Source: Pseudomonadota bacterium
GTDB lineage: Bacteria; Pseudomonadota; Gammaproteobacteria; Burkholderiales; Rhodocyclaceae
NCBI GenBank assembly: GCA_018262195.1
Contig: JAGTRS010000012.1
Coordinates: 1-64,000, forward strand
Direction of reading: 5' to 3'
Length of the DNA: 64,000 nt
Below are positions 22,282-51,790 of this stretch, piece by piece (within the stretch, counting starts at the first letter, position 1; each line of letters opens with the position of its first letter). The notes beneath the pieces were generated by a model, which ran no database searches, was not told the DNA's origin, and was given only the letters and a program-made list of their open reading frames with translations. The position numbers and the translations under genes are program-made.

Positions 22282-23220
22282 TTACCACTTGATGTTCTTG
22301 CGCATTTTGTAGCGTAGATAAATCGCTATGGCATTCATGCTGAGCACCATGGCCATCAGGACGAAGCCGGCGGCGGCGGCATTCACTTCGAAGGCCGGGT
22401 CCGGGCGCGAAGTCCAGTTGAAGATCTGGATCGGCATCACGGTGAAGGGCGACATCACCCAGTCGAACAGGCCGGCCGTTACACCTGGGCTGACTTCGGT
22501 GAAGGGCACCGGTGGCAGGAAGGCGATGAAGGTCAGGGCGCCGATGGTGATGATCGGTGCTGTTTCACCGATGGCGCGTGCCAGGCCGATGATCACGCCA
22601 GTCAGGATGCCGGGCATGGCGTAGGGGATGATGTGGTAGCGGCAGGTCTGCCAGCGCGTCGCACCGACCGCCATCGAGCCTTCGCGGATCATCGCCGGAA
22701 TGGCGCGGATCGCTTCGCGAGTGGAAACGATGATGATCGGCAGGATGAGCAGCGCCAGCGTCAGACCGGCCGACAGGATGCTCTGGCCGAAGCCGAACTG
22801 GTAGACGAAGATGCCGAGGGCGAGCAGGCCATAAACGATTGATGGCACCGCTGCCAGATTGGTGATGTTGATCTCGATAATCTCGGTGATCCAGTTGCGC
22901 TTGGCATATTCCTCGAGATAGACGCCAGCTGCGACGCCGATCGGCACGGCAGCCAGGGCGGTGACCAGCATGACCAGTAGTGAGCCGACCCAGGCGGACA
23001 GGATGCCGGCCTGCGTGGCGCGCCGCGAGGCGAAGTTGAGGAAGAAATCAACGGTGAAACGCTCCGAGCCTTTGGCCACCATGTCGGAAACCAGCAGCAC
23101 GATTACGAGCAGCGCGACAGCCAGACAGAAGATGCCGAGCACCTTGAAAATGGTGTCCTTGAGCTTGCCCTTGGCGATCAGGGCGCGGATTTGTTCCGTT
23201 GTGAGAATGCTCGATGACAT
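22282..23220 (-). CDS. pstA: Phosphate ABC transporter permease PstA
   Basis: Inner-membrane permease subunit with about six hydrophobic helices and the ABC permease EAA-type loop (SMAVGATRWQT). It pairs with PstC to form the phosphate channel. The ATG at 23220 shares its A with the stop of pstC (TGATG) and has a GGGAGAA ribosome site. A longer frame to 23253 would overlap pstC and is not needed. Confidence 0.95.
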   Translation of the reverse strand: MSSSILTTEQIRALIAKGKLKDTIFKVLGIFCLAVALLVIVLLVSDMVAKGSERFTVDFFLNFASRRATQAGILSAWVGSLLVMLVTALAAVPIGVAAGVYLEEYAKRNWITEIIEINITNLAAVPSIVYGLLALGIFVYQFGFGQSILSAGLTLALLILPIIIVSTREAIRAIPAMIREGSMAVGATRWQTCRYHIIPYAMPGILTGVIIGLARAIGETAPIITIGALTFIAFLPPVPFTEVSPGVTAGLFDWVMSPFTVMPIQIFNWTSRPDPAFEVNAAAAGFVLMAMVLSMNAIAIYLRYKMRKNIKW

Positions 23221-24167
23221 CAGTAGTTCTCCCGATATCGGCGGCGCAGCCACTGGCCGAGGATATTGAACATCAGGGTGATCAGAATCAGCGTCAGGCC
23301 GGCGGCGAAGATGGTCTGGTAGCCGATCGAGCCGTGCGGCAGATCGCCGAGGGCGACCTGGACGATGAAGGAGGTGATGGTTGCGGCCGGTTCCATCGGA
23401 TTCCAGGTCAGGTTCGGCTGCATGCCGGCGGCAACGGCGAGAATCATCGTTTCACCGACCGCGCGCGAAATGGCCAGGATGTAGGAGGCAGCTAGACCGG
23501 AGAAAGCGGCCGGGACGACGACGTGCAGAGCGGTATACAAACGGGTCGAACCCAGCGCATAGGAGCCTTCGCGCAGGCTCATCGGCACGGCGCGCATGGC
23601 ATCCTCGGACAACGAGGCGATGTACGGCACGATCATGATGCCCATGACCAGGCCGGCAGAAAGCAGCGAGAACCCGGGCAGCGACGGAATCAGCTTCTGC
23701 AGCAGCGGGGTAACCATGAGCAGTGCGAAGTAGCCGAAAACGATGGTCGGGATACCGCCTAGCAACTCAAGAATCGGCTTCGCGACTTCACGCACTTTGC
23801 CGTGGGCGAATTCGGACAGGTAGATGGCGATGATCGTCCCCATCGGGATGGCGACGACGAGGGCCACGAGCGAGGAAACGAGGGTGCCGGAAATGAGCAC
23901 CATGATGCCGAAGTGGGCATCATCGAATAGCGGGGTCCATTGCGTGTCGGTCAGGAAGTCGATGATGCTGACATGCTGAAAGAACTGGACTGACTCGGAA
24001 ACGAGAACATAGACGATGCCGATGGTGGTCAGCACCGACACGGCAGCCGCTGCGAAGAGCAGCGCTTCGATGATGCGCTCGCTGACGTGGCGCATGGCTT
24101 TCCGCGACAGGCGGTCGCTGACCATTGGCAGGTCGGAGGGTGTGTTGGCTGTCATAGCGTGATTCAC
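23220..24167 (-). CDS. pstC: Phosphate ABC transporter permease PstC
   Basis: Inner-membrane permease subunit, 315 residues. It has several hydrophobic helices and an EAA-type loop (SYALGSTRLY). The GTG at 24167 is chosen because AGGA lies 8 bases before it, whereas the ATG four codons later has no site at a good distance. It is separated from pstS by a region with two stem-loops. Confidence 0.95.
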   Translation of the reverse strand: MNHAMTANTPSDLPMVSDRLSRKAMRHVSERIIEALLFAAAAVSVLTTIGIVYVLVSESVQFFQHVSIIDFLTDTQWTPLFDDAHFGIMVLISGTLVSSLVALVVAIPMGTIIAIYLSEFAHGKVREVAKPILELLGGIPTIVFGYFALLMVTPLLQKLIPSLPGFSLLSAGLVMGIMIVPYIASLSEDAMRAVPMSLREGSYALGSTRLYTALHVVVPAAFSGLAASYILAISRAVGETMILAVAAGMQPNLTWNPMEPAATITSFIVQVALGDLPHGSIGYQTIFAAGLTLILITLMFNILGQWLRRRYRENY

Positions 24168-24246: not shown

Positions 24247-25248
24247 TTACATCTTTGCTTCGCGCTTCATCAGCTCTTCAATGGTAATGCCAATTTCATT
24301 ATGGCCGCCGAACACGGTGCCGATCTTGTTCTTCTTGATGTGCTCAAGGTTGCCGGCATAAGCAGAGGTCGGCAACGGAACGTACTTGACTTCCTTGGTC
24401 AGCGCAGCGCCGTTCTTCATGTAGAACTCGACGAACTCCTTGACCTCGGGCTTCTGCAACGACTTGGCCTTGACGTAGACGAAGATCGGACGCGACAGCG
24501 GCGCGTAGGTGCCGTTTTCGACATTGGCAGCAGACGGCTCAACAGCCTTGCCGGTTTTCGGATTGACGATCGGCAGCGCCTTCAGTTTGGCGGTGTTCTC
24601 GGCGTAGTAGGCGTAGCCAAAGTAGCCGATGGCATTAACGTCACGCGAAACGCCCTGCACCAGCACATTGTCGTCTTCGGAAGCGGTGTAGTCGCCGCGC
24701 GAGGACTTGGCTTTGCCGACCATGGCTTCGGTGAAATACTCGAAGGTGCCGGAGTCAGCGCCGGCACCGAACAACTTGACCGGCGCATCAGGCCAGGCCG
24801 GGTTGATCTGGTTCCACTTCATGATCTTGCCCTGGGCTGCCGGTTCCCACAGCATCTTCATTTCGGCAACGGTGGCCTGCTTGAGGAATGCATTCTTCGG
24901 GTTAATGACGACGGTCAGGGCATCAAAGGCGACCGGCATTTCGATGTACTCGACGCCTGCCGCCTTGCACAGCTCCATCTCCGCCTTGGTGATCGGGCGG
25001 GAGGCGTTGGAGAAGTCGGTCTCGTCACGACAGAATTTCTTGAAGCCGCCACCTGTTCCAGAAATGCCGACAGTCACCTTGATGGCGTTCTTCTTGGCTT
25101 TCTGGAATTCTTCGGCAACTGCTTCGGTGATCGGATAAACGGTCGAAGAACCGTCGATCTTGATGACCTGAGCCTGGGCTGCATGGGCGCCAAACAGGGC
25201 GACACCGGCTACGGCCAGGGCGGAAACGAGCTTGGAATACTTGAACAT
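24247..25248 (-). CDS. pstS: Phosphate-binding periplasmic protein PstS
   Basis: Periplasmic phosphate receptor of the Pst ABC importer. A signal peptide (MFKYSKLVSALAVAGVALFG, cleavage after AQA) precedes the mature start VIKIDGSSTVYPITEAVAEE, and the phosphate-binding GSGTGGGFKKF-like and SGTFEYFTEA regions are present. The 333-residue length fits. AGGAG precedes the ATG. It is the first gene of the pstSCAB-phoUBR cluster and has a Pho box upstream. Confidence 0.96.
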   Translation of the reverse strand: MFKYSKLVSALAVAGVALFGAHAAQAQVIKIDGSSTVYPITEAVAEEFQKAKKNAIKVTVGISGTGGGFKKFCRDETDFSNASRPITKAEMELCKAAGVEYIEMPVAFDALTVVINPKNAFLKQATVAEMKMLWEPAAQGKIMKWNQINPAWPDAPVKLFGAGADSGTFEYFTEAMVGKAKSSRGDYTASEDDNVLVQGVSRDVNAIGYFGYAYYAENTAKLKALPIVNPKTGKAVEPSAANVENGTYAPLSRPIFVYVKAKSLQKPEVKEFVEFYMKNGAALTKEVKYVPLPTSAYAGNLEHIKKNKIGTVFGGHNEIGITIEELMKREAKM

Positions 25249-35244: not shown

Positions 35245-36885
35245 ATGCAAGCCAGACCACTCCTTCACTCCATCGAGCGCTTCCTGCTGTCGCCGTTCAG
35301 CCTGGTGCTGGCGATCGTGATTGCCTTCGTGCTCAATGCCTATAGCCTGCCGCTGACCGACGTCGACGAAGGGGCGTTTTCCGAGGCAACGCGCGAAATG
35401 ATGGCGCGCGGCAACCTGATCTCGCCGACCCTGAACGATGCGCCGCGCCACGACAAGCCGATCCTGATCTACTGGGCGCAGGCCGTGTCGGTCAGCGTGC
35501 TTGGCGTCAGTGAAATCGGCTTCCGGCTACCGTCGATCATTGCCAGCATTCTCTGGCTGGTCTTCCTCTACCGCTTCTGCCTGCGCCATGCCGACCGGCG
35601 AACTGCCCAGGTCGCTTCGCTGGTCATGGCCTTGTCGCTGGCGGTTGGCTTCATCGCCAAGGCCGCGATTTCGGATGCCCTGCTCAATCTGTTCATCGCC
35701 CTGTCGATGTTCGGTATCTACGATTTCTTCTGTGCCAGTCGGGATGGCAAGAGCCCAAAACAGATCCGCCGGCTCCTGTTCTTCGTCTATGCCATGCTCG
35801 GCCTTGGGTTCCTGACCAAGGGGCCGGTTGCCGTGATGTTCCCGCTGCTGATCAGCGGCATCTTCTTTGTTTCGGCCGGTGCCTGGCGCGACTGGTTGAA
35901 GGCCGCCTTTTTCTGGCCGGGTTGGCTGCTCTTCCTGGCCATTGTTGTGCCCTGGCATGTGTTGGTCTATCTCGATCAGGGCGACGCCTTCTTCCGTGGC
36001 TTCTATCTGAAACACAACCTGAACCGCTACTCCAATACCTTCGAAGGGCATGGCGGCAAGTGGTATTACTACCTCGTCGTGCTGCCTTTCGTGCTGATGC
36101 CTTTCACCGGCTGGCTGTTCGCCATCGTCGGCAAGCTGCTCAAGAAACTGCGCTCGGCGCCGCTCGGCATGGCTTCTGGCGAAGGCCTGCTGGAACGCTA
36201 TCTTGTCCTGTGGTTCGTGGTCGTCTTCGGCTTCTTCTCCTTCTCCGGGACGCAGCTGCCGCACTACCTTCTTTATGGCTGCACGCCGGTGTTCATCCTG
36301 CTCGCCCGTTATCGACCCGAGTTCGAACGCCGCTGGCTGGCCTATGTGCCACTGATAGCCTTTGCCCTGCTGCTCGCCGCGCTGCCAGAAGTGCTGGTCT
36401 TTGCTGCCGGCAAGGCCGCCAAGCCCTTTGAAAAAATGCTGCTCGACGGGCTGGTTGCCGCATTCTCCGACGAGGCGCGCTGGTTGTTGCCTCTGCTGGC
36501 AGTCGCCGTCATCGCGCTCGCCCTTTGGCGCGCCCTGCCGGTCTGGCAGGGACTGGTCATCGCCGGCCTGCTGCAGGCGCTGGTCGTTGCAACGGTCATC
36601 GCGCCACGTGTAATTGGTGTGACTCAAGGTCCGATCCGCGAGGCAGCCATGGTTGCCCAGCAAAGTGGCGGTACGGTGGTGGCCTGGCGCATCATCATGC
36701 CCAGCTTCAGCGTCTATCGTCAGTCGGCGACCCCGACCCGGATACCTGTCGAGGGCGAACTGGTGCTGACCCGTACCGACCGCCAGCATGAGGTGCAAAA
36801 GCTGCTGGCGCCGGGGCTGGTACTACGTGAGGTTTATCAACGTAGCTTCGTCACTCTGGCTCGCGTCGAACCAGGGAAGCCGTAA
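35245..36885 (+). CDS. ArnT-like glycosyltransferase family 39 membrane protein
   Basis: A 546-residue multi-spanning inner-membrane protein. It has the GT39/PMT-type first periplasmic loop with the catalytic acidic pair (DVDEGAFSEATREM, about residues 35-48) followed by about eleven further hydrophobic helices and a short soluble C-terminus. Such enzymes move a sugar from undecaprenyl phosphate onto lipid A or another envelope acceptor; ArnT adds aminoarabinose. No arnBCADEF genes are near, so the donor is open. It overlaps the PAP2 gene by one base (TAATG). Confidence 0.82.
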   Translation: MQARPLLHSIERFLLSPFSLVLAIVIAFVLNAYSLPLTDVDEGAFSEATREMMARGNLISPTLNDAPRHDKPILIYWAQAVSVSVLGVSEIGFRLPSIIASILWLVFLYRFCLRHADRRTAQVASLVMALSLAVGFIAKAAISDALLNLFIALSMFGIYDFFCASRDGKSPKQIRRLLFFVYAMLGLGFLTKGPVAVMFPLLISGIFFVSAGAWRDWLKAAFFWPGWLLFLAIVVPWHVLVYLDQGDAFFRGFYLKHNLNRYSNTFEGHGGKWYYYLVVLPFVLMPFTGWLFAIVGKLLKKLRSAPLGMASGEGLLERYLVLWFVVVFGFFSFSGTQLPHYLLYGCTPVFILLARYRPEFERRWLAYVPLIAFALLLAALPEVLVFAAGKAAKPFEKMLLDGLVAAFSDEARWLLPLLAVAVIALALWRALPVWQGLVIAGLLQALVVATVIAPRVIGVTQGPIREAAMVAQQSGGTVVAWRIIMPSFSVYRQSATPTRIPVEGELVLTRTDRQHEVQKLLAPGLVLREVYQRSFVTLARVEPGKP

Positions 36886-37721
36886 TGAACGATCAGGCAC
36901 TGCATGCCCGGAATCCGCTTTTTGATGCCTCCATGCTCGGCCTTTGCCTGCTTTTTGCCGGGGCGCTCGGCGCGCTTGGCTTGAGCGGCGACTGGTACTA
37001 CGGTTTCATTCCTGCCCAGGGGGCCAGCCTGGTCTTGCCCGCTGTTTTCTGGGAATCGCTCACCACGCTCGGTGACGGCCGCATCCAGTTGGCCTTGGTC
37101 TTGCCTTTCTGCCTGCGCTATCCGCGGGTTTTCTGGGCGCTGTTCCTCGGATCGATCCTCGCCGCAATGATCAGCCGCGGCGTCAAAGTCTGGTTTCCAA
37201 TGCCGCGCCCGGCTGCCGTGCTCGATGCCAGCCAGATCACCATCATCGGCGCCCGTCTGACGGCGCACAGTTTTCCATCCGGCCATACCGTCTCGGCCTT
37301 CTCCTTCGTTGTGGCGTGGCTCGCCTTGCTCGGCTGGTGGCGTGCCCTGCCCATCGTTGTGCTGGCTGCGCTGGCCGGTTTCTCGCGGATCGCCGTGGGC
37401 GCGCACTGGCCGGTCGACGTGCTGGCCGGGGCCTTGATCGGGATTGCAGGCGGTTGGGCCGGCCTGCGCCTGAGTCGCCATTTCCGTTGGGGGCTTGGTG
37501 TTCGGGCGCACTGGACACTGATCGGAGCAGCAGTCATCGCGGTGGCCACCCTGCCGTTCGATGGCCAGGGCTACCCAGACTCATTGCCCTGGCGGATCGT
37601 CGCCTGCCTGTGGGGGCTGGGCGGCTTCGTGCTGGTCTATCTGCTGCCCCTGTTGCGCCACGGCTGGCAGGCAGTGAATCGGCCGTTGGCAGGGCTGGCC
37701 GCGGAACCCCGCGCAATCTAG
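36885..37721 (+). CDS. PAP2 superfamily membrane phosphatase
   Basis: A 278-residue inner-membrane protein with all three PAP2 signatures: KVWFPMPRP (101-109), PSGH (131-134) and SRIAVGAHWPVD (167-178). It has about six or more helices. Family members remove phosphate from undecaprenyl pyrophosphate, phosphatidate or lipid A. Coupling with the ArnT-like gene suggests action on a polyprenyl-phosphate or lipid A phosphate, possibly recycling the carrier left by the glycosyl transfer. Substrate not determinable from sequence. Confidence 0.85.
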   Translation: MNDQALHARNPLFDASMLGLCLLFAGALGALGLSGDWYYGFIPAQGASLVLPAVFWESLTTLGDGRIQLALVLPFCLRYPRVFWALFLGSILAAMISRGVKVWFPMPRPAAVLDASQITIIGARLTAHSFPSGHTVSAFSFVVAWLALLGWWRALPIVVLAALAGFSRIAVGAHWPVDVLAGALIGIAGGWAGLRLSRHFRWGLGVRAHWTLIGAAVIAVATLPFDGQGYPDSLPWRIVACLWGLGGFVLVYLLPLLRHGWQAVNRPLAGLAAEPRAI

Positions 37722-46734: not shown

Positions 46735-46758
46735 GGCCGAAACAAAAGCTTAACGAAG

Positions 46759-46776
46759 CCGTAACTTCCGGGTCAC
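46759..46776 (+). promoter_or_regulatory. Candidate Pho box before the plcP-like gene
   Basis: Reads CCGTAACTTCCGGGTCAC: two 7-base half-sites (CCGTAAC, GGGTCAC) with a 4-base spacer, each 5 of 7 to CTGTCAC. A third, poorer copy (GCTTAAC, 46748-46754) is in phase 11 bases upstream. CATTAT at 46784-46789 could be the -10. Weaker than the pstS box. Confidence 0.4.
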
Positions 46777-46798
46777 GGGGCCGCATTATCGTGCGGGC

Positions 46799-47602
46799 AT
46801 GCCCAAGGTCAGATCCGTTTTTCTCTCTGATATCCACCTTGGCACGCGGGCGTGCCAGGCGGACAGACTTCTCGATTTCCTGCGCGAACATCCGGCCGAA
46901 CAGACCTATCTGATCGGCGATATCGTCGATTTCTGGGCGATGAGCCGGAGCATCAACTGGTCGCAGGCCCAGAACACCGTTGTCCAGAAACTGCTGCGCC
47001 GGGCGCGGCATGGGGATCGGGTGGTGTTCATTCCCGGCAACCACGACGAGGTGCTGCGCGAATACTGCGGCATCGTCTTCGGCGATGTCGAAGTCGTCGA
47101 TGAACTGGTCCATGAAACGGCCGATGGCCGGCGCTTCCTGCTCATTCACGGCGACCAGTTCGATCAGGTGACGCGCCATCATCGCTGGGTGGCCGTGCTT
47201 GGCGATCATGCCTACGAACTGCTGGTGCGCATCAACACACTGTTGTCGTGGGGGCGGCGCAAGCTGGGTATCGCCGGCTACTGGTCACTGGCCGGTTACG
47301 CCAAGCGTAAGGTCAAGACGGCGCTGACCTTTATTTTCGATTTCGAGGAATCCGCCATCCACCACGCCAAGGAGCGCGGGCTGGATGGCGTGATCTGCGG
47401 ACACATCCATTGGGCGACGATCCGTGAGCTTGATGGCCTGACTTATGTGAATTGCGGCGACTGGGTCGATTCCTGTACGGCCATCGTTGAACACTTCGAT
47501 GGCCGGCTGGAGCTGGTGACCTGGGCGGAGGCGAAACCGGTCCGCATGCTGGCCGCGCCCGTGCCGACGGCCGAGCCCGTCGCTGAAACAGTGGAGGCGT
47601 GA
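46799..47602 (+). CDS. plcP: PlcP-like metallophosphoesterase (LpxH-related, phospholipase C type)
   Basis: A 267-residue calcineurin-like phosphoesterase of the COG2908 group. Metal-binding motifs: D11-x-H13, GD at 40-41, GNHD at 80-83, HGDQFD at 117-122 and CGHIH at 200-204. Database names are often UDP-2,3-diacylglucosamine diphosphatase (LpxH), but the VVQKLLRRARHGDRVVFIPG and YWSLAGYAKRKVKTA regions and direct coupling to a glycosyltransferase match PlcP, which removes the headgroup of phospholipids to give diacylglycerol in phosphate-starved bacteria. The ATG is supported by the conserved start although no ribosome site is clear. The glycosyltransferase follows after one base. LpxH remains the alternative. 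Confidence 0.7.
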   Translation: MPKVRSVFLSDIHLGTRACQADRLLDFLREHPAEQTYLIGDIVDFWAMSRSINWSQAQNTVVQKLLRRARHGDRVVFIPGNHDEVLREYCGIVFGDVEVVDELVHETADGRRFLLIHGDQFDQVTRHHRWVAVLGDHAYELLVRINTLLSWGRRKLGIAGYWSLAGYAKRKVKTALTFIFDFEESAIHHAKERGLDGVICGHIHWATIRELDGLTYVNCGDWVDSCTAIVEHFDGRLELVTWAEAKPVRMLAAPVPTAEPVAETVEA

Positions 47603-47603
47603 A

Positions 47604-48785
47604 ATGCGCGTACTGATGGTTTCCGATGTTTATTTCCCTCGCGTCAACGGCGTTTCGACGTCCATCGAGACATTTCGCCGCACGCTGGTGGCGCAGGGCG
47701 TTGAGGTCCGGCTGGTCGTGCCGCGTTATGGCGACGAACCTGAGGAGGAGGGCGTCATTCGTGTCGCCGGCCGGCCGGTGCTGGGGGATCCGGAAGATCG
47801 CCTGGTTGGCTGGCGGGCGATGCATCATGCAGTGCTTGAAGCGGCCAGAGACTGTGATCTGATCCATATCCAGACCCCGTTCATCGCCCACTATGCCGGC
47901 CTGAAGGCAGCGCGCCAGCTTGGCCTGCCGGTGGTGGCGACGTACCACACGCTGTTCGAGGAATACCTGCAGCACTACGCCAGGTTCATTCCGTCAGGTT
48001 GGTTGCGCGGCCAGGCGCGCGCCTTTTCCCGGCGCCAATGCAATCAGCTCGACGCCGTGATCGTACCTTCGACCGCAATGCGGCAGCGACTGGATAGCTA
48101 CGGGGTGACGTCACCCATGCATGTGTTGCCGACTGGCATTCCGATGGCGCAGTTCGCCGGGGGCGACGGCTTGGCCTTCCGTCTGCGCCATGGCATTGCC
48201 GCGGACAGGCCGATGGCGCTGTTCGTTGGCCGGGTGGCGCATGAGAAGAACATCGGTTTCCTGCTCGAAGCGCTGGTCCATGCCCGGCAGATGCGACCCG
48301 ATACCCTGCTCGTCATCGCCGGCGAGGGGCCAGCCATGAACGACCTGAAGGCGCAGACCGCGGCACTGGGATTGCAGGATTCGGTCATCTTCATCGGCTA
48401 CCTTGACCGCAAGCAGGCTTTGCCAGACTGCTATGCGGCGGCTGATGTCTTTGTTTTTGCCTCGCGTACCGAAACGCAGGGGCTGGTCCTGATCGAAGCG
48501 CTGGCCGCTGGGGTGCCCGTGATCGCCCTGTCCGAAATGGGGACAACGGATATTCTGGCGCCCGGGCGTGGTGCGTTTTCGCCGCCGCCCAATCCAAAGG
48601 CTTTCGGTGAAGCGCTCGGTCATTTCCTCAATCATCCGGCGGCATGGCGTCACCTTTACGACGAGGCGCCGCACTATGCCTTGGAATGGACAGATGTGGC
48701 GATGGCCGAAAGGCTGGCGAATCTCTACCGCCAGATGGCAGGCGTGCGATTTGCTACGGAAATGCCTTTGAGTGCGACCGCGTGA
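47604..48785 (+). CDS. GT4 glycosyltransferase, probable diacylglycerol glycosyltransferase (Agt-like)
   Basis: A 393-residue soluble or membrane-associated retaining glycosyltransferase. The N-terminus MRVLMVSDVYFPRVNGVSTS and the C-terminal EX7E region (FASRTETQGLVLIEALAAGV) are characteristic of GT4 enzymes that glycosylate diacylglycerol. It starts one base after the PlcP-like stop, so translation is coupled, and its likely acceptor is the diacylglycerol that PlcP releases. Sugar donor unknown (UDP-glucose, galactose or glucuronate are possible). A mannosyltransferase role would be the alternative. Confidence 0.72.
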   Translation: MRVLMVSDVYFPRVNGVSTSIETFRRTLVAQGVEVRLVVPRYGDEPEEEGVIRVAGRPVLGDPEDRLVGWRAMHHAVLEAARDCDLIHIQTPFIAHYAGLKAARQLGLPVVATYHTLFEEYLQHYARFIPSGWLRGQARAFSRRQCNQLDAVIVPSTAMRQRLDSYGVTSPMHVLPTGIPMAQFAGGDGLAFRLRHGIAADRPMALFVGRVAHEKNIGFLLEALVHARQMRPDTLLVIAGEGPAMNDLKAQTAALGLQDSVIFIGYLDRKQALPDCYAAADVFVFASRTETQGLVLIEALAAGVPVIALSEMGTTDILAPGRGAFSPPPNPKAFGEALGHFLNHPAAWRHLYDEAPHYALEWTDVAMAERLANLYRQMAGVRFATEMPLSATA

Positions 48786-48796
48786 TTGAAGAACCG

Positions 48797-49000
48797 ATGA
48801 CTGAACAGTTCGAACAGGCTTGCAGCATTTGCCGCTACTTCAGGGCAGTGGACGGGCTGACCGGTGCTTGCCACCGTTTTCCGCCCATCTTTGCCGGGGA
48901 AAGCTCACCGAAGGAAACGCACCACTGGCGTTTTCCCATCGTCAGCGTGCATGCCTGGTGCGGCGAGTTTGTGTCGAAGACCGTGGCCTGGCGATCTTAA
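48797..49000 (+). CDS. Small Cys-rich metal-binding-type protein (67 aa)
   Basis: Contains CSICRYF, ACHRFPP and AWCGEF: four cysteines in a CxxC...C...C pattern together with the WCGEF ending, as seen in small proteins that bind iron-sulfur or zinc (a similar pattern occurs in the small subunits of benzylsuccinate synthase). No signal peptide. The ATG at 48797 is chosen; a GTG at 48782 would overlap the glycosyltransferase stop as GTGA and is a real alternative. It is the third gene of the plcP unit. Its stop overlaps that of the convergent cNMP-domain gene by 4 bases. Confidence 0.68.
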   Translation: MTEQFEQACSICRYFRAVDGLTGACHRFPPIFAGESSPKETHHWRFPIVSVHAWCGEFVSKTVAWRS

Positions 49001-49362
49001 ATTGAGGTGACCAGTTGATTCAGGTTGCGCAGGCGTTCGGCCATCACGCGCATGACCTGGGTGGCGAAGAAAGGCGTCTGCTGGACCAGGAACTGGAAGC
49101 GTTTTTCATCGACCGCGACGAACTCGCAATCAGTTGTCGCGATGACACTGGCCGAACGCGGTCCGGGCAGGACGATGCCCACTTCACCGACGATGCTGCC
49201 GTGCTGCAAGGTTTCCACGATCCGGTTGTGGACCACCACATCGGCTGAGCCGGTGGCCAGCACGAACATCATGTGTCCCTCTTCGCCTTCGCGGAACAGG
49301 GCTTGTCCGGCCGGAACGCGAATCATGGTCGGGTTGTGGGCGAAGAGTTCGATGGAGATCAT
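48997..49362 (-). CDS. Stand-alone cyclic-nucleotide-binding domain protein
   Basis: A 121-residue protein consisting only of a cNMP-binding beta-roll (GQALFREGEEGHMMFVLATG, GSIVGEVGIVLPGPRSASV). The phosphate-binding cassette has the usual GE...RSAS pattern. There is no DNA-binding helix-turn-helix after the domain, so unlike CRP it cannot act alone as a transcription factor. AGGA lies about 9 bases before the ATG. Ligand and partner unknown. Confidence 0.82.
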   Translation of the reverse strand: MISIELFAHNPTMIRVPAGQALFREGEEGHMMFVLATGSADVVVHNRIVETLQHGSIVGEVGIVLPGPRSASVIATTDCEFVAVDEKRFQFLVQQTPFFATQVMRVMAERLRNLNQLVTSI

Positions 49363-49455
49363 GGCAAAGAATCCTGTGTGAGCTTAATCCGCCCTTTTAT
49401 CACGGGTGTTCGGCCAGATTTGTTTCATTTTTATTACAACCAAGTGTCAGTTGAT

Positions 49456-50151
49456 CTAGAACAATTTTGGCGAGATCAGCCGGAGACCGATGGAAACCCA
49501 ATGCTGGTCGGCAATATGGCCGAACTGGCTGCCGTAGGTGGTGTCGATCTGGACGTGGTTGGGCACGATCCAGTGACGAATGCCGACCTGGAAATACGGA
49601 TTGCCCTTGTCCTGGCCATAACTCTCGGCGATCAGCCAGGTTTGCGCAGTTAGCTGCGTTTCGCTGCCGATGCCCCAAGTCAGACGGTTTTCCTGATTTT
49701 CACGTTCGCGGGTGTAGCCGAGATTGGTGTGGATGACCAGGCGGTCATCGGCCAGCGAAAAGCTGACCGGCACGTAGAAATACGGGTGCCCCGAGTGAGT
49801 GTTACCCGGCTGGGTGGCATAACCGGCCGCCAGGCCGATGCCGTAGCCGTTGGTTTCCAGTGGCTTGAACAGCGTCTTGCCCTGGATCACCGTGGCGCCG
49901 CTGTCCTGATGGCTGTTGGTGTAGGCCAGCGCACCACCGAGGGTCAATTCAAAGTTGCCACCAGGATTGCAGGCGGGCAGGGCCCACAGTTCGCGCTGCT
50001 TGCCGTGCAGATGCACCCAGGACTCGACCTGACAGGCGCCGTTATCGGTCAGCCGGGCATCGTCGGTGATCATCGGACGGGCGGCATGGGCTGCCGGAAT
50101 GGCGGCGAGCAGGGTGAACAGGACGAGCTTGGAGCGCATGAGCAAAGGCAT
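49456..50151 (-). CDS. Predicted outer-membrane beta-barrel protein
   Basis: A 231-residue exported protein: signal peptide MRSKLVLFTLLAAIPAAHAA (from the second Met), two cysteines (about 40 and 61) that could form a disulfide, then alternating short beta-strands rich in Tyr, Thr, Gly and ending in a Phe (RLISPKLF), as in outer-membrane barrels. No family name is certain. It is divergent from dgkA; about 100 bases separate the two starts. Start at 50151 or 50139. Confidence 0.6.
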   Translation of the reverse strand: MPLLMRSKLVLFTLLAAIPAAHAARPMITDDARLTDNGACQVESWVHLHGKQRELWALPACNPGGNFELTLGGALAYTNSHQDSGATVIQGKTLFKPLETNGYGIGLAAGYATQPGNTHSGHPYFYVPVSFSLADDRLVIHTNLGYTRERENQENRLTWGIGSETQLTAQTWLIAESYGQDKGNPYFQVGIRHWIVPNHVQIDTTYGSQFGHIADQHWVSIGLRLISPKLF

Positions 50152-50174
50152 AACTGATCTAGGTTAGGGTGCAA

Positions 50175-50204
50175 TTGTGACATCTCAGTGACGCCGCCTG
50201 TCAT
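50175..50204 (+). promoter_or_regulatory. Candidate Pho box before dgkA
   Basis: TTGTGACATCTCAGTGAC (50175-50192) holds two 7-base half-sites 11 bases apart, each 5 of 7 to CTGTCAC, followed by an exact CTGTCAT at 50198-50204, 12 bases on. It lies 49 or more bases before the dgkA ATG, in the shared divergent region. Confidence 0.42.
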
Positions 50205-50252
50205 CAAAGCTTAGCCAAGCCTGACTAAGGTGGGGGCTTTCACGGAGATGTC

Positions 50253-50669
50253 ATGCAGGAACCCTCTTCTCACGATCTGGGCCTTGATCCGGCCAACGAA
50301 TCCCCTTTCAAGGGCAAGACCGGCCTGCGCCGGGTCTGGAATGCCTTCAGTTACTCGATGGCCGGTCTGAAGGCGGCCTATCTGTGCGAAGACGCCTTCC
50401 GGCAGGAGGTGTGGCTCGCCGTGTTGCTGATTCCGACTGCCTTCCTGCTGCCGGTGCCTTGGCTGGCGCGCGGCTTGATGATCGCCAGCGTGCTGCTGGT
50501 GCTGGTTGTCGAACTGCTCAACTCGGCCATCGAGGCGGTGGTCGATCGTGTCAGCCTGGAGAACCATCGGCTGGCCAAGCGGGCCAAGGATATCGGCAGC
50601 GCGGCGGTCCTCATTTCGCTGCTCATGGTCATCGTGGTCTGGGTTTGCGTCTTGCTGGAGAGCTTGTGA
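50253..50669 (+). CDS. dgkA: Diacylglycerol kinase
   Basis: Small trimeric inner-membrane kinase that phosphorylates diacylglycerol to phosphatidate with ATP. The 138-residue protein has three hydrophobic helices and the family motif VELLNSAIEAVVDR (86-99) with E87, N90 and E94. It has a longer hydrophilic N-terminus (about 25 residues) than E. coli DgkA. GGAG lies before the ATG. The GT4 gene overlaps its stop by one base (TGATG), so the kinase and the glycosyltransferase, both acting on or near diacylglycerol, are translated together. Confidence 0.92.
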   Translation: MQEPSSHDLGLDPANESPFKGKTGLRRVWNAFSYSMAGLKAAYLCEDAFRQEVWLAVLLIPTAFLLPVPWLARGLMIASVLLVLVVELLNSAIEAVVDRVSLENHRLAKRAKDIGSAAVLISLLMVIVVWVCVLLESL

Positions 50670-51790
50670 TGTCGATCGCCATTGCCTTTGTTACCGAAAC
50701 CTTTCCACCCGAGGTTAACGGCGTGGCGATGACTGTCGGCCGGTTGGTTGGTGGCCTGCGCGAGCGCGGCCACCGGGTCAGCGTCATCCGGCCGAGCCAG
50801 GGCAAGGCTGACGCGAGCAGCGAGCATGAATTGACCCTGCCTGGGTTCCCGCTGCCCGGCTATCCCGGCCTGCGCTTTGGCTTGCCAGCCTGGCGTCGGC
50901 TGGCCCGGCAATGGCGGCAGAGCCGGCCCGATCTGGTGCACGTGGTGACCGAAGGGCCGCTTGGCTGGTCGGCGGTCAATGTCGCACGACGGATGGGCAT
51001 TCCGGTGACCTCCGGATTCCATACCAATTTTGACCGTTACAGCGTGCATTACGGACTGGGCTGGATGCGCCCGGCGGTTGCGGCTTACCTGCGCACCCTG
51101 CATCGACGGACGCTGGCGACCATGGTGCCGACTGCTGCGCTGGCGGCCGATCTGGCGGGTGAAGGCTTGCGCGGTGTGCGGGTTGTCGGGCGTGGGGTCG
51201 ATGCCTCGCTGTTCGATCCGGCCCGGCGCAGTGCCGAATTGCGCAGTACCTGGGGCGTGGAGGGTGAAGGTCCCGCCTGTCTCTATGTCGGCCGAATGGC
51301 CGCCGAGAAGAATCTGGCACTGGTCGAGAAATGCTTTGCGGCGATTCAGGTCTGGCACCCCAAGGCAAAAATGATCTGGGTTGGCGATGGCCCCTCCACC
51401 AAGCAACTGGCCAGCGATCACCCGGATCATCATTTTGCCGGCGTGCGGATCGGTGAGGATCTGGCTGCACACTATGCGAGTGCAGATCTGTTTCTCTTTC
51501 CCAGTCTGACTGAGACCTACGGCAACGTGGTGGCCGAGGCGATGGCCAGCGGTTTGCCGGTGCTGGCCTATCGCAGCGCGGCGGCCGCCGAGTTGATTGT
51601 CGATGGCGAAAATGGCCGCCTGGTGGCGCCGGGCGACGAGGATGGCTACAAACGCGCCGGGCTGGATCTGGTGTCGGATCTGGAGAGGCTGCCCGTGCTT
51701 GGTGCGGCGGCCAGGGGCTCAATGTTGTCCCACCACTGGTCGGTGGTTGTTGAACGCTTTGAGACGGTCATGCGGGAAGCGATGGCCTGA
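50669..51790 (+). CDS. Second GT4 glycosyltransferase (MgtA/Agt-like)
   Basis: A 373-residue GT4 enzyme. The N-terminus VTETFPPEVNGVAMTVGRL and the EX7E block FPSLTETYGNVVAEAMASGL are clear. It resembles GDP-mannose-dependent mannosyltransferases of the MgtA type as well as lipid glycosyltransferases. It is distantly related to the GT4 protein encoded at 47604. The start at 50669 overlaps the dgkA stop as TGATG; frames extending further upstream are shadows of dgkA. Co-expression with dgkA points to a diacylglycerol or glycolipid acceptor. Confidence 0.78.
   Translation: MSIAIAFVTETFPPEVNGVAMTVGRLVGGLRERGHRVSVIRPSQGKADASSEHELTLPGFPLPGYPGLRFGLPAWRRLARQWRQSRPDLVHVVTEGPLGWSAVNVARRMGIPVTSGFHTNFDRYSVHYGLGWMRPAVAAYLRTLHRRTLATMVPTAALAADLAGEGLRGVRVVGRGVDASLFDPARRSAELRSTWGVEGEGPACLYVGRMAAEKNLALVEKCFAAIQVWHPKAKMIWVGDGPSTKQLASDHPDHHFAGVRIGEDLAAHYASADLFLFPSLTETYGNVVAEAMASGLPVLAYRSAAAAELIVDGENGRLVAPGDEDGYKRAGLDLVSDLERLPVLGAAARGSMLSHHWSVVVERFETVMREAMA

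Follow-up and report, generated by a model that had tools for sequence, protein, structure and literature searches.

The stretch of DNA analysed here (64 000 nucleotides of contig JAGTRS010000012.1, assembly GCA_018262195.1, from a member of the Rhodocyclaceae; hereafter the window) carries at positions 46799..51790 a cluster of four core genes, plcP–GT1–dgkA–agt2, which we read as a phosphate-starvation module of a freshwater-type bacterium, in which Pho-controlled PlcP–Agt lipid remodelling would have its own diacylglycerol kinase (DGK); we give this reading a probability of about 0.8. All four genes lie on the + strand. The first, plcP (46799..47602, 267 residues), encodes a COG2908-like metallophosphoesterase (PF00149, 48 bits), predicted to be a PlcP-type phospholipase C, and its TGA stop codon, ending at 47602, is separated by 1 bp from the ATG of GT1 at 47604. 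GT1 (47604..48785, 393 residues) encodes a glycosyltransferase (GT) of family GT4 (PF13439 and PF00534), a predicted glucosyl-diacylglycerol synthase. Further along, the diacylglycerol kinase gene dgkA (50253..50669, 138 residues; DAGK_prokar, PF01219, 116.8 bits) overlaps by one base at 50669 (TGATG) with agt2 (50669..51790, 373 residues; PF13439 and PF00534), the second GT4 gene, whose product is a predicted glucuronosyl-diacylglycerol synthase. These gene positions, the one-base gap and the overlap had been given in a first-pass annotation of the window, and all were confirmed on the sequence.

In the proposed mechanism, low phosphate would lead PhoB to turn on plcP, and PlcP would strip the phosphate-bearing head groups from membrane phospholipids, leaving diacylglycerol (DAG). 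Agt2 would add glucuronic acid to DAG to give the anionic glucuronic acid diacylglycerol (GADG), and GT1 would add a sugar, most likely glucose, to give the neutral monoglucosyl diacylglycerol (MGDG), both phosphorus-free membrane lipids. DgkA would phosphorylate the DAG taken by neither transferase, returning it to phospholipid synthesis and preventing its build-up.

The metallophosphoesterase and the two glycosyltransferases

The first-pass annotation had called the metallophosphoesterase PlcP-like and had proposed that its clade be determined and the genome checked for a separate lpxH. The window protein is 51–53% identical to the PlcP of Pseudomonas aeruginosa and 49–51% to that of Sinorhizobium meliloti, and in a tree of 48 rows it fell with both references, split from the LpxH side with an SH-aLRT support of 100. 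The tree comprised LpxH sequences (the genome's own and three solved ones), the window PlcP, the two reference PlcPs and thinned rows from the family and class; these last were found with the window PlcP as query, so other COG2908 branches are undersampled in it. The reference genes come from records filed as plasmids, in which a GT gene follows the P. aeruginosa plcP, and genes of an acyl-homoserine-lactone synthase and a LuxR-type protein adjoin that of S. meliloti; from species and neighbours, we take them to be PA3219 and SMc00171. Against the LpxH model TIGR01854 (cut-off 190.35 bits) the window PlcP scored about 45.7–45.9 bits, and the reference PlcPs were similarly low, at 44.5 bits (P. 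aeruginosa) and 38.9 bits (S. meliloti). A separate LpxH is present in the window's genome (C39:151567-152253); it scored 254.5 bits on the same model and matched a solved LpxH at E 1e-61. The window protein contains SDIHL, GDIVDFW, GNHD, HGDQ and GHIH, the metal-binding motifs of metallophosphoesterases, and the genome's own LpxH has GNRD where PlcP has GNHD. On its sequence, the product of 46799–47602 is of the PlcP type; an identity as LpxH was rejected on the tree split together with the separate enzyme on C39.

The two GT4 proteins had both been put forward as Agt enzymes, which holds for the second; the first belongs to a different GT4 lineage. Agt2 of the window is 49% identical over 375 residues to the P. 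aeruginosa transferase encoded beside plcH–plcR, which we take to be Agt2 (PA0842), and the two share a clade (support 97) in a thinned tree of 32 rows. GT1, by comparison, shares 31% identity with P. aeruginosa Agt1 and 28% with Agt2. It belongs to a separate GT4 clade (support 100), distinct from that of the Agt1-type enzymes (support 99), and an Agt1 identity was rejected on the 31% identity and this separation. The available text of PMC8528852 (the papers cited here by PMC number are all represented by partial text) reports that in P. aeruginosa PA0842 (Agt2) makes GADG and PA3218 (Agt1) makes MGDG, and the second GT4 protein is predicted by kinship to be of the Agt2 type and to form GADG. 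For GT1, formation of the glucolipid MGDG seems most likely from its resemblance to models of DAG glucosyltransferases, well below their cut-offs: on the alpha-MGlcDAG synthase model it gave 125.8 bits against a cut-off of 400, the best of four Agt-like proteins scanned. Three nucleoside-diphosphate-sugar (NDP-sugar) dehydrogenases exceed the cut-off in the window's genome, so that a supply of UDP-glucuronate is possible.

Among 29 plcP loci from the class, the neighbour is of the Agt1 type (47–54% identity) in 21 and of the GT1 type in three (L007–L009), and five have neither within 1.5-kb flanks. In three loci of the class that combine plcP with an Agt1-type gene (L015, L020 and L032), an extra partial GT lies at the edge, 40–44% identical to the window's GT1. 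On plasmid pTs417 of the purple sulfur bacterium Candidatus Thiodictyon syntrophicum (L190:3491-5664), a plcP-type gene is divergent from a GT1-type gene whose product is 52% identical to the window's GT1.

The kinase and the conservation of the cluster

In a sample of 81 genomes of the family, plcP was found in 54, dgkA in 77, GT1 in 53 and agt2 in 55, with partial plcP matches in G202 and G245 (one each) left out of the counts. All four genes occur in one cluster, defined by gaps of less than 3 kb between genes, in 25 of the 81 genomes (the window's included) and in 20 genera; in one of the 25 (G261), GT1 is present only as a fragment at a contig end. This clustering is more than chance, and these four-gene clusters support the idea of the first-pass annotation that breakdown, glycosylation and recycling form one pathway. 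The order of the genes varies, with at least four arrangements (for example, plcP–GT1–dgkA–agt2 and GT1–dgkA–agt2–plcP) and a fifth located at a contig end. This persistence of the cluster despite changes in gene order is the strongest indication that DgkA is part of the module. Clusters holding dgkA plus an agt number 40. The presence of plcP and that of agt1 go together (both in 48 genomes, one only in 6 and 5, neither in 22; Fisher 5e-10), as do plcP and agt2 (Fisher 2e-8). A wider draw of 229 genomes from the class contained plcP in 64; dgkA lay less than 5 kb from plcP in at least 11 of the 44 class genomes with both genes listed, namely the window's and ten others from eight further genera. 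These counts are lower bounds, and the associated P of 4e-14 treats the genomes as independent, two pairs of which share a genus. Flanks were read in four of the ten, and the transferase gene was of the GT1 type in three and of the Agt1 type in one (G113, L022).

The window DgkA matches the solved diacylglycerol kinase 3ze4 at E 2e-28, with LNSAIEAVVDR and RAKD.GSAAVLI common to both, and its DAGK_prokar domain retains the conserved active-site region. A second DgkA of the same genome is encoded on C2 (L178:386-2453, G000:C2), 16 bp from, and convergent with, a match to a phosphoethanolamine transferase of the EptA type, which scored 569.9 bits on NF028537 against a cut-off of 500. The available text of PMC7559476 describes EptA-type enzymes as yielding DAG and eptA/mcr as accompanied by dgkA. 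As EptA-type enzymes and PlcP would both yield DAG, one kinase per DAG source is suggested, which in the window's genome would mean one DgkA for each DAG-making enzyme. At E 1e-60, 13 of the 81 family genomes have an EptA of the C2 type, three of them (the window's genome, G236 and G248) with less than 1 kb between it and a dgkA; as a general partner of the second DgkA it was rejected on this count. In a tree of DgkA sequences, the copies from clusters and the other copies are mostly apart, with 6 label changes compared with 18.1 when shuffled, in a tree that has many weak forks and one mislabelled row (NC_L099, the same gene as CL_L166).

Pho-box-like sites and neighbouring genes

A PhoB-box-like site precedes the plcP start at 46748..46776 (+), with three 7-mers at 11-bp spacing (GCTTAAC-4-CCGTAAC-4-GGGTCAC). 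Its three-unit score has p = 0.001 and its two-unit score p = 0.003 (1000 dinucleotide shuffles); the 7-mer weights (which permit C or A and T or C) were set from the published consensus after the window repeats had been seen, and all Pho p values are uncorrected over several promoters. Six sites on both strands of the window reach the plcP three-unit score, compared with 0, 0, 0, 0 and 1 in five shuffled windows, and all three plcP units align with Pho-like units of the same-genus locus L149. The sequence thus contains what we regard as a Pho box upstream of plcP, making this gene a candidate for PhoB control. In both loci (46748–46801 in the window), TTATCGTG or CTATCGTG stands between the last Pho unit and the plcP ATG, which follows only a few bases later; with so short a distance from Pho unit to ATG, the transcript may be almost leaderless. 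The positive control pstS gave two-unit and three-unit p values of 0.001 and 0.045, and rpiA gave 0.55 and 0.91.

The spacing recurs among relatives. In 27 plcP promoters, a set that omits L145, L159, L166, L184 and L156, L160 (no start codon found), pairs of GT[CA]A are 11 bp apart in 14 cases and 22 bp apart in five, with 0–3 for each of the remaining distances between 5 and 30 bp; over all 33 promoters the figures are 15 at 11 bp and 5 at 22 bp. Two-unit scores with shuffle p < 0.05 were obtained for 29 of 33 plcP-headed promoters, 10 of 10 headed by agt1 and 11 of 11 headed by olsB. A score of at least 16 is reached by 27/33 plcP promoters (Fisher 7e-14), 5/11 olsB promoters and 21/150 controls, the controls being stretches upstream of frames of at least 250 residues in the same loci, many of which are not genes and some of which possibly overlap real promoters. 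An earlier search with the consensus CTGTCATNNNNCTGTCAT, allowing up to three mismatches, gave 8 matches where 3.98 were expected, none of them at plcP and one, with three mismatches, at 50237–50254; it was replaced by the 7-mer score.

For dgkA–agt2 there is a possible, unproven PhoB half-site pair at 50198..50215 (+), CTGTCATCAAAGCTTAGC. The sequence CCTGTCATCAAAGCTTAG is identical upstream of dgkA in the window and in L149, where the pair has p = 0.08. It is above all the Pho control of dgkA–agt2 in the window's genome that we infer rather than observe.

Between GT1 and dgkA lie three further genes, which the first-pass annotation had offered as possible new parts of the pathway: a small Cys-rich open reading frame (ORF; 48797..49000, +, 67 residues), with no Pfam or NCBIfam match at E 0.001; a stand-alone protein with a cyclic nucleotide monophosphate (cNMP)-binding domain (48997..49362, −, 121 residues; PF00027, 63.6 bits); and an outer-membrane barrel protein (49456..50151, −). 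They are present, but among 47 loci only one other, L149, has them in the cluster (its Cys-rich ORF, in the same place, is 66% identical and its cNMP protein 68%), and they are therefore accessory at best. A PhoB-box-like site lies upstream of the cNMP gene at 49422..49450 (−), CTGACAC-4-TTGTAAT-4-ATGAAAC (three-unit p = 0.002, two-unit p = 0.001), of which units two and three align with Pho-like units in L149. Another lies upstream of the barrel gene at 50177..50194 (−), GCGTCACTGAGATGTCAC (two-unit p = 0.004, three-unit p = 0.08), with a counterpart in L149 (p = 0.002 and 0.005). The predicted structure of the barrel protein has 12 strands in a KdgM/NanC-type fold; with its PF27733 homologues and Pho-box-like upstream site, it is a candidate phosphate-starvation channel.

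We found no fifth gene common to all clusters among the 47 loci. The most frequent real one encodes an OlsB-like acyltransferase (13 of 47 loci), the scanned representative of which scored 169 bits on the OlsB model, under the cut-off of 320; the gene heads the run before agt1 in six loci and before dgkA in one, and in the window's genome it lies elsewhere (C45, 65%). Other recurring neighbours are PstC (8 loci), PhoU (4) and CYTH-CHAD (6); these groups and the OlsB-like one were named from one representative each with hidden Markov models, and several further recurrent groups are shadow ORFs. Of the full pst–pho cluster previously described in the window, PstA (22282–23253, −) and PstS (24247–25248, −), the only two checked, lie above the NCBIfam cut-offs. 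About 9 kb upstream of plcP, at 35245–37721 (+), a PAP2-type phosphatase gene adjoins one for an ArnT/PMT-like glycosyltransferase. On a plasmid of Mitsuaria sp. 7 (L071:4914-7980), a plcP-type gene is directly upstream of ppk1 (polyphosphate kinase), with no transferase gene annotated in the stretch shown.

Alternative readings and known systems

Several observations weigh against a Pho-controlled module with its own kinase. Its activities, lipids, transcripts and induction are all deduced from sequence. The dgkA promoter is weak: the pair at 50198..50215 opens the best three-unit site upstream of the gene, with p = 0.26, and the best two-unit site (50175–50192) has p = 0.05; across the loci, two-unit p < 0.05 was reached in 0/4 promoters headed by dgkA and 3/5 headed by agt2. 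Control stretches pass the same threshold in 26 of 150 cases, well above 5%, so that single p values are too hopeful. In the 81 family genomes, dgkA and plcP show no significant association by presence (Fisher p = 0.11), because dgkA is nearly universal (77/81) and position alone ties the two, and the full cluster is absent from 29 of the 54 plcP genomes, in some perhaps through contig ends. GT1 reaches the cut-off of none of the NCBIfam families shown. Finally, the source assembly (4.23 Mb, completeness 99.8%) has a contamination of 9.95%; the same-genus genome G290, at 0% contamination, shows an arrangement identical to that of the window. Near relatives carry the names Ferribacterium, Dechloromonas and Azonexus, which places the genome in the Rhodocyclales.

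Were the metallophosphoesterase an LpxH of lipid A synthesis, the GT4 pair would serve the synthesis of lipopolysaccharide or exopolysaccharide. Relatives of the protein do bear the database name ‘UDP-2,3-diacylglucosamine diphosphatase’, and it matches the LpxH model weakly, but the separate enzyme on C39, the fully supported tree split, the GNHD in place of GNRD and the Pho-box-like promoter at plcP leave this explanation very improbable and already largely refuted. A doubt of a different kind concerns the first transferase, which might act on what Agt2 makes and so produce di-glycosyl lipids, or might use another sugar, and itself make no MGDG. GT1 does lie outside the Agt1 grouping, and purified P. 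aeruginosa Agt2 accepts UDP-glucose to some extent, according to the available text of PMC8528852, so that Agt2 alone might make both lipids. Two weak indications point the other way, namely that the best model for GT1 after GlcN-PG synthase is alpha-MGlcDAG synthase, and that 2 of the 120 GT1 relatives listed are named 1,2-diacylglycerol 3-alpha-glucosyltransferase by a source; we consider a GT1 that makes no MGDG somewhat unlikely.

The remodelling by PlcP and Agt could also be real and the job of DgkA unrelated to it, for example, the recycling of DAG released when lipid A is modified or glucans are made, its gene having been placed by shared envelope regulation or by chance. The generality of dgkA in the family and its weak Pho box in the window fit such an account, and the position of the second DgkA beside an EptA-type match indicates that DgkA serves other DAG makers. 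Yet the EptA-side copy may already do that job, the cluster copies are mostly kin, and the clustering is repeated in 20 genera of the family, with dgkA near plcP in eight more of the class; an unrelated kinase is, to our judgement, unlikely. We favour a kinase dedicated to the module and, more tentatively and at slightly short of even odds, a broader picture for the Rhodocyclales: a regulated branch point at which the dedicated DgkA would set how PlcP-derived DAG is split between glycolipid and phospholipid, each DAG-making enzyme having its own kinase, with a glucolipid step by a GT4 enzyme outside the Agt1 clade and, in some relatives, an OlsB-like gene heading the run. If the reading as a phosphate-starvation module is true, PlcP–Agt remodelling would extend to bacteria of the Dechloromonas/Azonexus type, which are linked to phosphorus removal in wastewater, and DgkA would gain a concrete partner in phosphate starvation.

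PlcP–Agt remodelling with Pho boxes is already established (PMC4796936 and PMC8528852, in the text available). In literature searches, with subscription papers, preprints and supplements outside their scope, we found no plcP–GT–dgkA–agt2 cluster, no GT1 of the other clade in this role and no experimental betaproteobacterial case. The idea is less novel than the first-pass annotation suggested: the kind of pathway is known, and this combination is a variant of it. The P. aeruginosa pathway (PlcP with Agt1 and Agt2; PA3219–PA3218 and PA0842) is alike in having plcP beside a GT4 gene and Pho-box-like promoters, and its PlcP and Agt2 share clades with the window proteins. It differs in that agt2 lies apart, beside plcH–plcR, and that the stretches shown have no annotated dgkA, whereas the window has a GT1 of another GT4 clade and dgkA inside the cluster. 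The marine plcP type 2 clusters (PMC4796936, partial text) likewise have a gene for a DAG glycosyltransferase next to plcP, and predicted Pho boxes, but differ in lineage and gene set, and the word ‘kinase’ is absent from the main text of that paper. In the available part of PMC13086504, dgkA appears as a gene-table entry alongside the topic of plcP.

Kinases have been met near such enzymes in other settings. In Pseudomonas putida BIRD-1, PlcP and DagK are both among the lipid-remodelling proteins enriched at low phosphate (PMC5082522), although the text seen gives a proteomic list and no gene cluster; DagK is not among the proteins that its printed list gives as lacking in the phoBR mutant, although its discussion calls the set PHO-dependent. 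The pairing of eptA/mcr with dgkA (PMC7559476, partial text), of which the window's genome has an example, is similar in that a DAG-producing enzyme is accompanied by a DAG kinase, but there the DAG arises from phosphoethanolamine transfer to lipid A and not from PlcP. The phosphate islands of HIMB59 (PMC10734472, partial text) come close in content, with pst, phoR–phoB, ‘LpxH’, RfaG or glycosyltransferase and DGK genes; their authors see the GT and DGK genes as without direct phosphorus function, and the island ‘LpxH’ is known by name alone. If our reading of the window is true, genes named LpxH beside GT and DGK genes in such phosphate islands elsewhere merit a second look.

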